A stretch of 32,476 nt of DNA from Candidatus Mcinerneyibacteriota bacterium. GTDB lineage: Bacteria > Macinerneyibacteriota > Macinerneyibacteria > Macinerneyibacteriales > DSCS01. The translations under genes and the position numbers were made by a program. Positions 3,309 through 10,134 of this stretch are shown here, one piece after another; the first letter of the stretch is position 1; the number at the start of each line of letters is the position of its first letter. A model generated the notes under the pieces. It searched no databases. It worked only from the letters and a program-made list of their open reading frames with translations, and was not told where the DNA came from. The stretch lies in the NCBI GenBank assembly GCA_016937175.1, contig JAFGWL010000019.1, positions 1-32,476 of the forward strand. Reading direction: 5' to 3'.

Positions 3309-5030
3309 TTATAGAGCCGGGAAACGGACGGTAAAGGAAGAGCCCTTTTTTTGTTCGGATTCGACACTGATGGAGGCTCCATGCATCACGGCGATGTGTT
3401 TTACAATGGAAAGCCCCAGCCCTGTACCTCCCGTTCGGCGGGATCTGGATTTGTCCACGACGTAAAAGCGTTCAAAGATCCGTTCTGTTTTCTCACGGGG
3501 GATACCGATCCCGGTATCTGAAACCGTGAGAAGGATACGGTTGTCTTCCCTCCGGGCTGTGACCTTGATAGTTCCCTCGTCTGTATAGCGGAGAGAATTT
3601 TCCATTAGGTTGATGAGGAGCTGTTCCAGCCTCAGGCGGTCCCCGTAGACAAGGAGGGGGCCGGCGGGAAAGTCTGTCAGGAGTTTCAATGATTTTTCTT
3701 TGATCTTTTTATCGAAAAGAAGGATCACATTTTCGATGATTTCACAGAGGTTTACGGATTCAAACCCTTCCGTTCCCTTCTCTTCAAGACGAGAAAGATC
3801 ACCCAGATCCCGGACAATGGAGATAAGCCGATCTGTATGAGCGGCAATGATATCAAGGTATTTCCTGTCGGAGTCTTCTGCTGACTCCAGAAGTGTGTCC
3901 GCAAAACCCTTGATGGCAGTCAGGGGAGTCCTCAACTCATGCGAGACATTGGCGACCAGGTCTTTTTTCATCTTTTCTGTTTTTCTGATCAGGGTGATAT
4001 CATGAAGAAGAACCACTGCGCTGCCGGCCGTTGTCATGGTCACACTGGCCAGCCATACTTTTTTGCTCAGGGAGATCTCTTCTGACCGGGTCTGATTATC
4101 TGCCCGGCACTCTTCGATAAGAGTGAGGAGTTCAGGCCAGGGCAGGATGTCAATGAGAGGGTGTCCCTCAGCTTTCGGGCATTCTGCCAGGTGAAGAAAG
4201 CTTGTATTATAGAGGGTGATCATGCCTTGAGCATCGATGACCACAAGAGCTTCGCTCAGAGATTCGATAATACTTGAGATCTTTTCCTTTTCTTCGCTCA
4301 ATTGTCTGAAGAGGGTAGAGAGTTTGTCGGTCATGAAGTTGAAATTGTCGGCCAGTGTTTTGAGCTCATCATGGTTTTTAAGGTGGACTTTGGTGCCGAA
4401 CCGGCCTTGCGAGACATCCATAGAAGCTGCAGCGATGGCTCTGACCGGGGCAGAAAGGGAGCGGGAGAGGAAAAAGGCAAGGAGCAGGGCCAGGGCGATA
4501 AGGATCCCCAGGAGATGAATAAGGCTCCGGAAAAGGGCCTGGTTCAGGACCGTGACATCTTCAAGATAAAGACTGGCTCGCACTACCCCGAGTGATCCTT
4601 CACCTCGTGAGTCGGCAGGGAAGGGAAGAGCGACATAAAGCATCTTTTTTTGCTCTGTATCGCTGTAACGGATGGAAAAGCCCGTCCCTTTCAAAAGAGC
4701 CTGACGGATCTCGATCCTGTTATTATGGTTTTCCATGGTCCGGGGATCGTTGGTGGAATCAGCCCAGACTTTCCCGTCCCGCCCGATGACAGTGATCCTT
4801 GTCTTGATGGCTTCACCCAGGGAATCGACTGTCTGCTCCAGTGAGGGGGTTTCCCCGAGGTCAGCCGCCAGAGGAACGATTGTCCTGACGGTCTTTTCCA
4901 GTTCGCGTTTGAGGACATCGGTAAAATGCTTTTCGATGGTCCGTGATGAAAAAAGAGAGAGGGGAAGGGCCAAAAGAAGGATGATGAATATAAAGGAGAG
5001 AATGATCTTCAGAAAGATGGAGCGTATCAT
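3309..5030 (-). CDS. phoR: Phosphate regulon sensor histidine kinase PhoR
   Basis: A 573-residue membrane histidine kinase of the PhoR/PnpS type. Domains in order are TM1 (about 8-27), an extracytoplasmic region (30-165), TM2 (about 168-188), HAMP (190-243), a PAS-like domain (about 248-345), HisKA with the phospho-acceptor His364 in NVSHELRTPLTAIKGF, and HATPase_c. The HATPase has an N box (LMENSLRYTDEG), a G1 box (DTGIGIP), an F box (FERFYVVDKSRS) and a G2 box (GTGLGLSIVKHI). All catalytic motifs are intact. It overlaps phoB by four bases (ATGA) and is therefore co-transcribed with it from the divergent control region. It should phosphorylate PhoB at low phosphate and be restrained through PstSCAB-PhoU. 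The large extracytoplasmic domain is like PnpS/PhoR of Gram-positives and unlike the short periplasmic part of E. coli PhoR. Confidence 0.95.
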   Translation of the reverse strand: MIRSIFLKIILSFIFIILLLALPLSLFSSRTIEKHFTDVLKRELEKTVRTIVPLAADLGETPSLEQTVDSLGEAIKTRITVIGRDGKVWADSTNDPRTMENHNNRIEIRQALLKGTGFSIRYSDTEQKKMLYVALPFPADSRGEGSLGVVRASLYLEDVTVLNQALFRSLIHLLGILIALALLLAFFLSRSLSAPVRAIAAASMDVSQGRFGTKVHLKNHDELKTLADNFNFMTDKLSTLFRQLSEEKEKISSIIESLSEALVVIDAQGMITLYNTSFLHLAECPKAEGHPLIDILPWPELLTLIEECRADNQTRSEEISLSKKVWLASVTMTTAGSAVVLLHDITLIRKTEKMKKDLVANVSHELRTPLTAIKGFADTLLESAEDSDRKYLDIIAAHTDRLISIVRDLGDLSRLEEKGTEGFESVNLCEIIENVILLFDKKIKEKSLKLLTDFPAGPLLVYGDRLRLEQLLINLMENSLRYTDEGTIKVTARREDNRILLTVSDTGIGIPREKTERIFERFYVVDKSRSRRTGGTGLGLSIVKHIAVMHGASISVESEQKKGSSFTVRFPAL

Positions 5031-5716
5031 AAATCCAGCTTATACCCTACGCCCCTGATATTTTTGATCAGATCGCCGTAGGGCTCCATTTTTTCACGGA
5101 TATGTTTAATATGGACATCCACAGTACGGTCCAGGACCGCCTTTTCGTCTCCCCAGAGGTGGTCCAGGATCTGTTCGCGGGTAAAGACCCAGCCCCGGTG
5201 ACGGGCCATGTAGAGGAGGATATTGAACTCTGTCGCTGTGAGCTCGATATCCTTTCCATCGACCATGACTCTGTGGCGGTTGACCTCGACCTGAATATTG
5301 TCTGTCAGCATCAAAGCGACCTGAGCGGAGGACTCCACATCAGGGTAGCTTCTTTTAATCAGGTTTTTGATACGCGCTGTCAGTTCCCGGACAGAAAAAG
5401 GTTTGGGAATGTAGTCATCGGCACCGATCTCCAGGCCCAGGATACGGTCGATCTCTTCCCCGCGGGCTGTGACCATGACCACCGGGATGGATTTTGTGTT
5501 TTCGTTCCGTTTCAGCTCTTTACAGGCTTCAAGCCCGTCACCGTCAGGCAGCATCAGATCCAGAAGGATCACTTTAGGGCGTTTCTGCCCCATCCTCTCG
5601 GTGAAAGAGTGCAGAGTCGTAAAAGTCTCTACAGTAAAGCCGGCTTTTGTCAGATGAAGGGAGATCAGATCGGCGATATCCTCTTCGTCTTCGACGATAT
5701 AGATAAGATCATTCAT
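5027..5716 (-). CDS. phoB: Phosphate regulon response regulator PhoB (OmpR/PhoB family)
   Basis: A 229-residue response regulator. The N-terminal receiver domain has the acidic pocket E9/D10, the phospho-acceptor Asp53 in LLDLMLPDGDG and the conserved Lys in PKPFSVREL. The C-terminal winged-helix DNA-binding domain (about 130-229) contains LTATEFNILLYMARHRGWVFTREQIL and the DRTVDVHIKHIREK recognition region. I chose the ATG at 5716: an AAAGGAG ribosome site lies seven bases upstream, whereas the in-frame TTG at 5722 would sit only one base after that site. It is translationally coupled to phoR and divergent from pstS, which identifies it as PhoB and not a generic OmpR-type regulator. It should bind the direct-repeat array between phoB and pstS. 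Confidence 0.95.
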   Translation of the reverse strand: MNDLIYIVEDEEDIADLISLHLTKAGFTVETFTTLHSFTERMGQKRPKVILLDLMLPDGDGLEACKELKRNENTKSIPVVMVTARGEEIDRILGLEIGADDYIPKPFSVRELTARIKNLIKRSYPDVESSAQVALMLTDNIQVEVNRHRVMVDGKDIELTATEFNILLYMARHRGWVFTREQILDHLWGDEKAVLDRTVDVHIKHIREKMEPYGDLIKNIRGVGYKLDL

Positions 5717-5740
5717 CAGCAAGCTCCTTTCCCTTCTATA

Positions 5741-5769
5741 ATAGTAGCACAGGATAAAGGAAATTTGAA
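5741..5769 (-). promoter_or_regulatory. Predicted phoB-phoR promoter
   Basis: On the - strand, TTCAAA (5764-5769) and TACTAT (5741-5746) are separated by exactly 17 bases, and the phoB ATG follows about 25 bases after the -10. The Pho-box array begins eight bases upstream of this -35, so PhoB bound there could also control its own gene. Identified by eye. Confidence 0.55.
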
Positions 5770-5776
5770 TATTCCG

Positions 5777-5863
5777 TTAATTTCAGGTTAAGTTTATCCT
5801 TCACTATTATTAACGGAAAATTAACATTTCCTTCACCTCTCTTTCATTGCAGGGAGGTATCTT
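5777..5863 (+). promoter_or_regulatory. Extended Pho box and pstS promoter
   Basis: Seven TTMAY-like direct repeats start at 5777, 5788, 5800, 5810, 5821, 5832 and 5843. The spacings are 11, 12, 10, 11, 11 and 11, so the whole array keeps an exact 66-base period over six steps. Units read TTAAT, TTAAG, TTCAC, TTAAC, TTAAC, TTCAC and TTCAT. Eleven-base direct repeats are the known binding geometry of PhoB/PhoP-type dimers, and the motif is closer to the Bacillus TTAACA type than to the E. coli CTGTCAT type. The last unit ends 10 bases before a TATCTT -10 element (5858-5863), which is the class II activator position known for PhoB. A strong AAAGGAGG site and the pstS ATG follow. Confidence 0.8.
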
Positions 5864-5886: not shown

Positions 5887-6933
5887 ATGAAATCTATTTT
5901 GAAATTGTTTGTGGTAGCTGTGTTGCTTCTAACCGCCTTCGGGACAGCCCGGGCGGCGGACAATGAACTTATGGGGGCAGGAGCTTCGTTTCCCTATCCT
6001 CTCTACACCAAGATGTTTGCTGAATATCACAGGGAGACAGGTGTGAAAGTCAATTATCAGGCCATCGGGTCCGGCGGCGGAATCAAACAGGTCATGTCAA
6101 AAGTCGTAGATTTCGGCGGGACAGACGCTTACCTTGATGATGCCAAATTGAGCGAGGCCAAAGAAGAGATCCTTCATATCCCCACATGCCTGGGGGCTGT
6201 GGCTGTGACCTATAACCTTCCGGGAAATCCCCAGCTGAAACTGACCGGGGATGTCATCGCGGATATTTTTATGGGGAAGATCACAAAATGGAATGACGAG
6301 AGGATCAGCAACCTGAATAAAGGTGTGAAACTGCCCAAAATGAGGATCACAGTGGTCCGCCGGTCGGACAGTTCAGGGACGACTTTTATCTTCACCGATT
6401 ACCTCTCTAAAGTCAACCCCGAGTGGGAAAAGAACATGGGGAGGAGCAAGAGCCCGTCCTGGGGCGCTTACGCCATCGGAGCTGCCAAGAACGCAGGAGT
6501 CGCAGGACAGGTCAAGAATATTCCCGGGGCTGTGGGTTATGTGGAAGTCATCTATGCCCTCTCCAACGGGATGCCTGTGGCATCTGTGAAGAACAGAAGC
6601 GGAGCCTTTATAGCGCCGACCCTTGAAGGCGTGGGGCTTGCGGCAGATACGGAGATGCCGGCTGATACCCGTGTCACCATCACAGACACAGGGGCAGCCA
6701 AGGGCTATCCTATCTCCAGTTTTACCTGGATCATTTTCTACAAAGAGCAGAACTACGGCGGCCGCACTTTGGCCCAGGCAAAGGAGACCCTCAATCTGCT
6801 GTGGTGGATGATCCATGACGGACAGCGTTACAATGAAGATCTGAAATATGGAAAACTTCCGGCGGAAGCTGTGAAGAAAGCGGAAACTGTCCTGAGATCG
6901 GCCCGTTACAACGGGAAACCCATCCTAAAATGA
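5887..6933 (+). CDS. pstS: Phosphate ABC transporter, phosphate-binding protein PstS
   Basis: A 348-residue periplasmic phosphate-binding protein. The signal peptide is residues 1-23, with likely cleavage at ARA|ADNE. The lack of a lipobox Cys suggests a soluble periplasmic protein. The mature start MGAGASFPYPLYTKMF and the phosphate-contact motifs (GAGASFP; IGSGGGIKQV; FGGTDA; RRSDSSGTTFIFTDYLS) match the PstS family and not the sulfate or molybdate binding proteins. The length is typical. It is the first gene of pstSCAB-phoU, preceded by the Pho-box array and a strong ribosome site, and should be strongly induced by phosphate starvation. Its stop overlaps the first candidate pstC start, and a stable hairpin follows within 30 bases. 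Confidence 0.97.
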   Translation: MKSILKLFVVAVLLLTAFGTARAADNELMGAGASFPYPLYTKMFAEYHRETGVKVNYQAIGSGGGIKQVMSKVVDFGGTDAYLDDAKLSEAKEEILHIPTCLGAVAVTYNLPGNPQLKLTGDVIADIFMGKITKWNDERISNLNKGVKLPKMRITVVRRSDSSGTTFIFTDYLSKVNPEWEKNMGRSKSPSWGAYAIGAAKNAGVAGQVKNIPGAVGYVEVIYALSNGMPVASVKNRSGAFIAPTLEGVGLAADTEMPADTRVTITDTGAAKGYPISSFTWIIFYKEQNYGGRTLAQAKETLNLLWWMIHDGQRYNEDLKYGKLPAEAVKKAETVLRSARYNGKPILK

Positions 6934-7865
6934 CCATGATGAAAGCCGGGGATGCAAGGGGGGCGGAAGCGGTTTCCGCCTCCCGCCTCACTTCTCACAA
7001 GATGAAGGAAAAGGGGTTCGCCTCTTTTCTTCTTTTTGCGGGGATTTCAGTTCTTATGGTTCTGGGAGCCTTTTTTGTGACACTGGTGCTTCAGTCCTGG
7101 CCTCTCTTCAGAGAAACGGGGTTCAGCTTTTTTACCACCCTGCGCTGGGCACCCATGGAAGAGGCTTTCAGCGTTCTTCCTTTTCTGGCAGGGACACTGA
7201 TGACCTCTCTTCTCAGTATTCTGATAGCGTTCCCCTTTTCAATGGCGTTATCGATCCTGTTGGGCGAGTATCTTAAAACCGGCCCCTTTGCTGCCGCCTT
7301 TAAGAGTGTTACGGAGCTTTTAGCCGGGATTCCTTCTGTCATCTATGGGTTTTGGGGTATCATGATCCTCATGCCGCTTATTCAATCTCTGCAGATGAAA
7401 CTGGGGTTGATCCCTTATGGAGTAGGGATTCTTACAGCATCTCTGATCCTTTCTGTCATGATCATTCCCTATGCAGCTTCCCTGGGACGGGATGTGATCT
7501 CCATGGTCCCGGGAGAGTTGAAAGAGGCGGCCTATGCCATGGGGGCTACACGTTCGGAAGTGGTCTTCCATGTCATCCTGCCCTACGCTCGTTCGGGGAT
7601 CACAGCAGGGTTTTTTCTGGCCCTGGGACGTGCTGTGGGGGAGACCATGGCAGTCACGATGCTTATCGGGAATTCCAATTTTATACCCAGGGGGATCTTC
7701 AGCCCGGCTAATACCATGGCCAGTGTCATCGCCAACGAGTTCGGAGAGGCCGATGGGATGCATACCACAGCTTTGATCGCTGTAGGCCTTGTCCTGATGA
7801 TCCTGACCGGGCTTATCAACTATGCAGGGAAAAGCATTATGAAACGCTTTCAGGTAGGAGGATAG
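6930..7865 (+). CDS. pstC: Phosphate ABC transporter permease PstC
   Basis: An inner-membrane permease of 311 residues with about six transmembrane segments and the ABC-permease coupling motif ELKEAAYAMGATRSEVVFHVILPYARSGI. The IPSVIYGFWG segment is typical of PstC. It pairs with PstA to form the phosphate channel. The ATG at 6930 overlaps the pstS stop (ATGA), and ATGs at 6936 and 6939 are also possible. The first 24 residues are a hydrophilic extension not typical of PstC, encoded across a GC-rich hairpin. The ATG at 7002 gives a more standard N terminus but has no ribosome site. I keep 6930 because of coupling. Confidence 0.93.
   Translation: MTMMKAGDARGAEAVSASRLTSHKMKEKGFASFLLFAGISVLMVLGAFFVTLVLQSWPLFRETGFSFFTTLRWAPMEEAFSVLPFLAGTLMTSLLSILIAFPFSMALSILLGEYLKTGPFAAAFKSVTELLAGIPSVIYGFWGIMILMPLIQSLQMKLGLIPYGVGILTASLILSVMIIPYAASLGRDVISMVPGELKEAAYAMGATRSEVVFHVILPYARSGITAGFFLALGRAVGETMAVTMLIGNSNFIPRGIFSPANTMASVIANEFGEADGMHTTALIAVGLVLMILTGLINYAGKSIMKRFQVGG
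6958..6984 (+). promoter_or_regulatory. GC-rich hairpin just after pstS, within the 5' end of pstC
   Basis: An 11-pair stem forms between 6958-6968 and 6974-6984: the sides are GGGGGGCGGAA and TTCCGCCTCCC, with one G-T wobble, and the loop is five bases. No T-run follows, so it is not a terminator. Hairpins after the binding-protein gene of ABC operons are known to stabilise the upstream message and to lower permease expression. That role here is inferred. Confidence 0.6.
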
Positions 7866-8714
7866 ATGAAAAATCCGTCCGTATCAAAACGTATGGTCAA
7901 AGACCATTTTTTCAAGGGGCTGGTCCTCTTTTTCGCTTCCCTTGTGGTGATCCCTCTCTTTCTCCTGCTGGGGTATATCTTTAAGAAAGGGATAGGAGCC
8001 ATCAACTGGGATTTCATCTTTTCCATGCCCGCTGGTGTGGGGGAGAGCGGCGGCGGAATCGTGCATTCATTGACAGGGACGCTGATCCTCATCATCATTG
8101 CGGTTATCCTTTCTGTTCCCGTGGCTGTGGCTACGGCTCTTTTTATCAATGACCATCCCAAAAACAAGATATCCCGTATGATACGGTTTACCGTGGATAT
8201 GCTGCAGGGGATCCCTTCGATCATCATGGGTATCGTCGTCTATATCTGGATCGTGCTGCCCATGAAAAATTTTTCTGCGTTTGCTGGCGGGGTGGCTCTG
8301 GGGATCATGATGCTCCCCATTGTGATCAAATCGACAGAAGAGACCCTGAAGATGGTGCCTGAGAGCTTGAAAGAGGCATCCATGGCCCTGGGAGCCCCCT
8401 ATTACAAGACGGTTCTTCATGTCATCCTGCCTGCAGGCCTTTCGGGGATTTTGACAGGCGTCCTTCTGGGAGTCTCGCGTATCGCAGGAGAGACGGCTCC
8501 TCTTCTCTTTACTGCTTTCGGGAATCCTTTTCTCAATACTAATATCTTCAAGCCGGTGGACGCCCTGCCCCTGCTGATCTATAATTATTCCACAAGTCCC
8601 TATCCCGAATGGCATAGCCTGGCCTGGGGAGCTTCTTTCATTCTGGTCGCCTTTGTCCTGATTTTGAACCTGATAACGAGATTGGTGGTGAAAAAATGGC
8701 AGATAAAGTATTAA
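7866..8714 (+). CDS. pstA: Phosphate ABC transporter permease PstA
   Basis: The 282-residue second permease of the Pst transporter. It has about six hydrophobic segments, the [15 protein letters not shown] entry segment, [11 protein letters not shown], and the coupling-loop motif [30 protein letters not shown]. The C-terminal [13 protein letters not shown] motif separates PstA from PstC. The start follows the pstC stop directly (TAGATG), and the GGAGG ribosome site sits inside the end of pstC. The last 19 bases overlap pstB in another frame, so the operon is tightly coupled. Confidence 0.96.
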
Positions 8715-9460
8715 GCGTACGGGGCTTGAATGCCTATTACGGAAATAAAAAAGCGGTCCTGGACGTCAATGTCGATTTTTATAAGAACAAGATCACCGCG
8801 ATCATGGGCCCGTCAGGTTGCGGGAAGACGACGTTTCTGAGATGTCTCAACCGGATCCATGAGGTCAACATAGAAGCCCGGGCCAGGATCGAGGGAGATA
8901 TCTTTCTCAATGGCGAAAATATAGCCAGGATGCACCCTATCCTTGTCCGGAGAAGGATAGGGATGGTATTCCAGAAGCCGAATCCTTTTCCCCATATGAC
9001 GATTTACGACAATGTGATCGCCGGATATAAACTTAACGGGATCAAAAAGAAAAAACATGAATTCGATACCATTGTGGAACAGTCTCTCACCAGGACAGCC
9101 CTCTGGGAAGAGGTCAAGGATTCTCTGTACGACCGGGGGACATTCCTCTCGGGAGGTCAGCAGCAGCGCCTGTGTATCGCCCGGGCGCTGGCCATGAACC
9201 CCGATGTGATCCTTCTGGATGAACCTACTTCAGCTCTGGATCCCATTGCCACAGCAAAGATCGAAGAGCTTCTGAATGAATTGAAAGAAAATGTGACCAT
9301 CATCATCGTGACTCATAATATGGCCCAGGCCGGCCGCATCTCAGACTATACAGCCTTCTTTTACCTGGGTGAGCTGCTGGAATACGGGACAACGGAAAAA
9401 CTCTTTACAAATCCCGAAAACGAAAAGACTGAAAACTTCCTCACAGGGCGTTTCGGGTAA
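8696..9460 (+). CDS. pstB: Phosphate ABC transporter ATP-binding protein PstB
   Basis: A 254-residue cytosolic ATPase that powers phosphate import through PstC-PstA. The Walker A motif GPSGCGKT is at residues 38-45, the Q-loop is in VFQKPNPFP, the ABC signature LSGGQQQR starts at residue 151, the Walker B is [13 protein letters not shown], and the H-loop is VTHNMAQA. The FQKPNPFP motif and the length are typical of PstB. The region before the signature (DSLYDRGTF) is slightly divergent from the common KDRLHESAL. It overlaps pstA by 19 bases. Confidence 0.97.
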
Positions 9461-9471
9461 GGGGAATGAAC

Positions 9472-10134
9472 ATGTTTGAAAAAAGAATGAATGAGATCAA
9501 AAACAAACTTTCATTGCAGGCCGGGACAGTTGAATCAATGTTGCAGCATGCGCTGAGCGGACTTTTTGACAGTGACCGGGAGTCGTGTGAAAAAGTCTTT
9601 CAACTGGAAGAAAACGTCAACAGGCTCGAGATTGCCATCGATGAGCTGTGCACCATGGTCCTGGCGCTGAACCAGCCTGAAGCGAGACATCTGCGGATGA
9701 TCATCACAGCGCTTAAAAACAATAACGACCTGGAACGTATAGGGGACCATGCTGTGAATATCTGTGAAAGTGCCCTGGAGCTCATAAGCTATGTGAACAA
9801 AAAGGATTATGTCCTTCTCCCGCGAATGGCCGGCGTGGCCATGGAGATGTTTAAAAAGGCTGTCCGCTCATTTGTGACCGATGATGTGGATCTGGCTGCA
9901 GAGGTAAAAGAGCTGGATGATACAGTCGATGAGATGGAACAGCAGATCCTCAAACGCTCCATCTCCATCATGGCTGTGGAGACGGACTATATCTCCCTGG
10001 AATATCACATCATCAGGATCGCCCAGAATCTGGAAAGGATCGCCGATCTGTCGACGAATATCGCCGAAGAGACCATCTTTATGAAAGAGGGACGGATTGT
10101 GAAACACGGAGAGAATGAGACCCTGGGTGAGTGA
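9472..10134 (+). CDS. phoU: Phosphate transport regulator PhoU
   Basis: A 220-residue all-helical protein with two PhoU repeats. Each carries the metal-binding helix motif: NNDLERIGDHAVNI in the first and AQNLERIADLSTNIAEE in the second. PhoU links the PstSCAB state to PhoR and is needed to shut the regulon off when phosphate is plentiful. I prefer the ATG at 9472, since the GGGG of the ribosome site (9461-9464) is seven bases from it but only one base from the in-frame ATG at 9466. It is the last gene of the operon. No intrinsic terminator is visible after it, and a separate promoter precedes the next gene. Confidence 0.95.
   Translation: MFEKRMNEIKNKLSLQAGTVESMLQHALSGLFDSDRESCEKVFQLEENVNRLEIAIDELCTMVLALNQPEARHLRMIITALKNNNDLERIGDHAVNICESALELISYVNKKDYVLLPRMAGVAMEMFKKAVRSFVTDDVDLAAEVKELDDTVDEMEQQILKRSISIMAVETDYISLEYHIIRIAQNLERIADLSTNIAEETIFMKEGRIVKHGENETLGE

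Follow-up and report, generated by a model that had tools for sequence, protein, structure and literature searches.

The phoB–pstS Locus

The window, by which we mean the whole stretch of 32,476 nucleotides analysed here, is contig C31 of a 1.88-Mb MAG. Its phosphate genes are arranged divergently, with phoR and phoB on the reverse strand, a 170-bp intergenic region, and then pstS-pstC-pstA-pstB-phoU on the forward strand. The response regulator gene phoB (5027..5716, − strand) begins at an ATG at position 5716, the same ATG that opens the phoB ORF in a sister species, and its product contains the Pfam domains PF00072 and PF00486; the top NCBIfam model is TIGR02154 PhoB, at 234.6 bits, under its cut-off of 296.2. 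The sensor histidine kinase gene (3309..5030, − strand) is of the phoR/pnpS type, and the best-matching of its profiles, NF046044 PnpS, likewise scores 352.7 bits, under its cut-off of 400. On the other side of the intergenic region, pstS (5887..6933, + strand; TIGR00975, 350.8 bits against a cut-off of 205) leads the pstSCAB-phoU genes (5887-10134, + strand), with PstS, PstC, PstA, PstB and PhoU all above their NCBIfam cut-offs. The organism appears to be a diderm, judging by its porin-like genes. No Rfam family or tRNA was found across the window, and no terminator-like or sigma-70-like site was found in the phoB–pstS intergenic region.

Seven Words on the Forward Strand

A first-pass annotation had described the intergenic region as a single array of seven Pho-box-like units, spaced at about 11 bases and ending 10 bases before the pstS −10 element. 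Seven TTMAN words are indeed present on the forward strand, starting at 5777, 5788, 5800, 5810, 5821, 5832 and 5843 and spanning 66 bp. When the 170-bp intergenic region was shuffled 10,000 times with its dinucleotides preserved, a chain of seven never arose, and the longest chain had four words. The spacing, however, is not even. The steps between the words are 11, 12, 10, 11, 11 and 11, so that the word at 5800 is one base out of step with its neighbours on both sides. Under the narrower TTMAY pattern that the annotation had used, the longest forward chain falls to five, because the second word (5788) reads TTAAG.

The last four words are a complete operator by themselves. This pstS Pho operator (5810..5847, + strand) consists of TTAAC at 5810, TTAAC at 5821, TTCAC at 5832 and TTCAT at 5843 with an exact 11-bp period, and the −10 element TATCTT (5858..5863, + strand) lies 10 nt past the last repeat, precisely as the annotation had it. 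Sixteen of the 20 unit bases are the same in the sister species, and all of the changes stay within the consensus. The earlier description is supported on these points: the units are Pho-box-like, follow the helical repeat, stand to the pstS −10 in PhoB class II geometry and are conserved in the sister.

A Second Array on the Reverse Strand

What the first reading missed is the array on the other strand. The phoB Pho operator (5754..5791, − strand) has the units TTAAC (5791-5787), TTAAC (5780-5776), TTCAA (5769-5765) and TTTAT (5758-5754), again with an exact 11-bp period, and 10 nt past the last of them is the −10 element TATTAT (5738..5743, − strand), which is TATCAT in the sister. It is the weaker of the two operators, its last two units being off-consensus, and it is the same as the sister at 19 of 20 unit bases. 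Like pstS, phoB appears to carry a Pho operator where a −35 element would be. The phoB −35 element that the array had been said to abut is not evident, as a sigma-70 consensus scan of the region gave no −35/−10 pair at all.

The distal ends of the two operators face each other, 18 bp apart. Since the phoB array overlaps the first two of the supposed forward units, the seven-unit count runs two features together. Each of the distal phoB units has at its core the palindrome TTAA, which also reads on the forward strand, and a stray TTCAC (5800..5804, + strand) happens to sit between the operators, off the 11-bp register. The apparent length comes from reading two opposed arrays as one. The underlying regulatory feature is real, well conserved and of a known kind, and its core biology is well known.

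A strict grammar can be written for these promoters: four TTHA words spaced exactly 11 bp apart, followed after 10 nt by TANNNT. The 32-kb window has one match per strand (5810, +; 5791, −), and the sister intergenic region likewise has one per strand. Even with one mismatch allowed, there are only two matches in the 1.88-Mb genome, and they are the two promoters described here, at 5810-5863 on the + strand for pstS and at 5791-5738 on the − strand for phoB. The grammar is present in 1 of 100,000 shuffles, a count that is post hoc because the grammar was written after the window had been seen; the one blind check is a further genome of the order, G002. A genome scan for TTMAY-N6 repeats, which had been suggested along with the seven-unit claim, singles out the pstS operator, which in either genome of the genus is the sole match to four units with 0 mismatches. 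Many matches of looser patterns fall within coding DNA or antisense to it and were treated as chance, and the counts given by reversed-pattern controls in these scans are not negligible.

Could the whole pattern be an accident of base composition, or the site of some other OmpR-family regulator? The intergenic region has a GC content of 35% against 50% for the window, and the genome encodes one further Trans_reg_C protein (G000:C10). Such an origin is nonetheless barely credible in view of the shuffle tests, the conservation in the sister and the uniqueness of the sites in the genome, as well as their location between phoB and pstS and the matching layout at pstS in other phyla.

Comparison with Relatives and Other Phyla

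The sample of the genus is two genomes, the second being the sister species (L003/G001), whose PstS is 82% identical. Its intergenic region aligns without gaps across both operators, and the operator units are kept. The units are far better conserved than the sequence between them, with 35 of 40 unit columns identical compared with 19 of 49 linker columns (Fisher P = 3e-6). In G002, phoB is not divergent from pstS; it lies about 4 kb downstream of it in the same orientation. The pstS promoter of this genome consists of four units followed, 10 nt on, by TATAAT, and matches the strict grammar with 0 mismatches.

The same layout extends well beyond the order. From 80 loci we took the 14 pstS promoters with a recognisable array, in genomes labelled Kryptonia, Desulfofervidaceae, WOR-3, Bacteroidota, Acidobacteria and others; all 14 have four units, a consensus fifth unit at one exact step further upstream is absent from every one of them, and most have a hexamer starting with TA at 10 nt. 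Four units, 10 nt and a TA-rich −10 are thus the usual layout of the pstS promoter in these loci. In a comparison of promoters by their gap, 10 nt was found in 11 of 11, some of the candidates among them having been found by a pattern that includes this gap.

Two variants seen upstream of pstS are worth describing. In L007, L009, L010 and L015 (Kryptonia and Bacteroidota), TAACTTTG or TAATTTTG lies 10 nt past the four-unit array. These fit the −7 element of the Bacteroidota type, TAnnTTTG; the array spacing seems to be kept in these loci with a different promoter type. In L058 and L047 the arrays are mixed, TTCAY TTCAC GTAAC GTAAC, with G in place of the first T in the two proximal units.

The comparisons bear directly on the idea of one extended forward operator, in which three extra distal units would aid pstS through cooperative loading of PhoB. 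Promoters with multiple PhoB boxes are known, such as E. coli ugp (PMC4415409); the seven words at steps of 10 to 12 bp are far above chance, and those at 5777 and 5788 are kept in place in the sister. A single extended array would have all of its units conserved, in register and on one strand, and the seven words do not behave in this way. The second reads TTAAG in both species. The third is off-register and becomes TTTTC in the sister, where its score falls from 6.4 to −0.3 on a word-scoring matrix built solely from the loci of other phyla. With the same matrix the first two words score higher on the reverse strand in both species (7.3 on − against 5.0 on + at 5777, and 7.3 against 2.0 at 5788), a preference that the full reverse-strand operator explains. 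The 14 array-bearing promoters and G002, moreover, have four units. We regard the longer version as unlikely.

The annotation had also proposed that both operons may be under the control of the same sites. The compactness of the 170-bp region and the adjoining of the arrays would favour a shared operator, with phoB driven from the far side by the pstS array and having none of its own. However, phoB does have its own complete four-unit operator in the correct orientation, with the 10-nt gap to its −10 and nearly all of its unit bases retained in the sister, which makes this arrangement very improbable.

Two Probable Back-to-Back Operators

We conclude, with a probability of roughly 85%, that the intergenic region contains two separate, complete and canonical four-unit PhoB class II operators, placed back to back, one for each of the divergent promoters. 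Both show the tandem direct repeat at 11 bp by which a PhoB/PhoP Pho box is recognised, with an exact period, and the class II geometry, a gap of about 10 bp to a TAN3T/A −10, is seen at both promoters of the two species and at the pstS promoter of G002. Both operators sit at known Pho regulon genes, and a PhoB/PhoR pair is encoded, albeit with both models below their cut-offs.

From these features we infer PhoB binding and phosphate control at both sites, along the following lines. When phosphate is scarce, PhoR would phosphorylate PhoB. Each operator, with its four head-to-tail 11-bp units (TTAAC/TTCAC/TTTAT plus 6 nt) and 10 nt to a −10 hexamer without a −35, would accommodate phosphorylated PhoB as two tandem dimers that stand in for the −35, and the bound PhoB would recruit the sigma-70 RNA polymerase in the manner of class II activation. 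The forward operator would in this way turn on pstSCAB-phoU, and the reverse operator would provide autoactivation of phoBR.

A more elaborate form of regulation may be imagined. Read on the forward strand, too, the words at 5777 and 5788 are kept in both species, in exact phase with the pstS operator (33 and 22 bp), and could for this reason work on both strands. The pair of operators might act as a composite switch, where dimers on the eight units meet head to head on a conserved helical register, these two palindromic TTAA words accept dimers in either orientation, and the autoactivation of phoB is coupled to the induction of pst. We consider this coupling improbable, and prefer the two separate operators.

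Relation to Known Pho Boxes

The TTAAC-type core had been likened to the Gram-positive motif. The PhoP boxes of Bacillus subtilis are TTAACA-like repeats, and the operators here share with them and with the Streptomyces PHO boxes a similar TT(A/C)AC core in 11-bp direct repeats; they differ in that the organism is apparently a diderm, of a genus with a fixed layout of four units and 10 nt. The Streptomyces boxes are 11-nt units of GTTCACC (PMC4415409, PMC6988585), 11 nt being the size by which a Pho box unit is defined (PMC4415409). The motif is in fact not peculiar to Gram-positive bacteria, as four-unit arrays of the TTAAC type precede pstS in many diderm lineages and the SphR box of cyanobacteria is CTTAACCT, in at least three tandem repeats (PMC1906773). 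The SphR boxes have the TTAAC core, the 11-bp period and the position before pst genes in common with the present operators (PMC1906773), whereas the latter have four units, belong to a different phylum and serve the divergent regulator gene by a second array.

The rule in E. coli is that tandem boxes end 10 bp before a TAN3T/A −10 (PMC1906773), and PhoB sites also occur upstream of phoB itself (PMC10294691). The class II promoters of E. coli pstS, phoA and phoB share with those described here the tandem 11-bp units replacing the −35 and the 10-bp gap. The E. coli unit, however, is CTGTCAT as compared with the TTAAC/TTCAC-like units here, and, unlike in E. coli, phoB and pst are neighbours transcribed in opposite directions, with their operators back to back. 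For a phylum that has been little sampled, the locus offers a simple and testable grammar of PhoB operators, which is met again at pstS in several further diderm phyla. There is a reason for caution as well: a palindromic TTAA core can let two opposed arrays pass for one long array.

Candidate Regulon Members

The grammar also points to likely further members of the regulon, namely an operon of porins and a glycosyltransferase with a possible part in lipid remodelling. In front of a porin-like cluster, a pattern that leaves out the −10 found an orthologous four-unit site in both species (G000:C45:8470-8507 and G001:C2:103245-103282), and in both a −10 is present at exactly 10 nt. The candidate operator with its −10 covers L146:2471-2524 (G000:C45:8470-8523) and, in the sister, L149:2230-2283 (G001:C2, − strand). 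L149 is the true ortholog; L144 (G001:C23) was rejected in this role, being inside a coding ORF. The cluster consists of four paralogs, one of which has a weak Porin_4 match just under the cut-off, and on the strength of these sites the paralogs are candidates for phosphate regulation.

Two other sites, G000:C44:6623 and the palindromic G000:C36:7748, were not convincing as Pho sites. For the alkaline phosphatase gene (L153:3663-5001, G000:C8; Pfam PF00245), inspection by eye of the short upstream gap and of the region before the preceding ORF gave no Pho operator.

Weaker Pho-like operators are found at L183:5574-5627 and 4705-4736 (G000:C30, − strand) and, in the sister, at L145:2641-2694 and about 3507-3560 (G001:C11). 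Their positions in the two species are orthologous, one preceding a small membrane protein and the other an 804-aa protein with GT4 domains; being weaker, and having been chosen in part for their −10, they rank as candidates. The 804-aa protein has a PHP-like N-terminus, as judged by eye. One may speculate that this locus serves lipid remodelling under phosphate limitation, with glycolipids replacing phospholipids.
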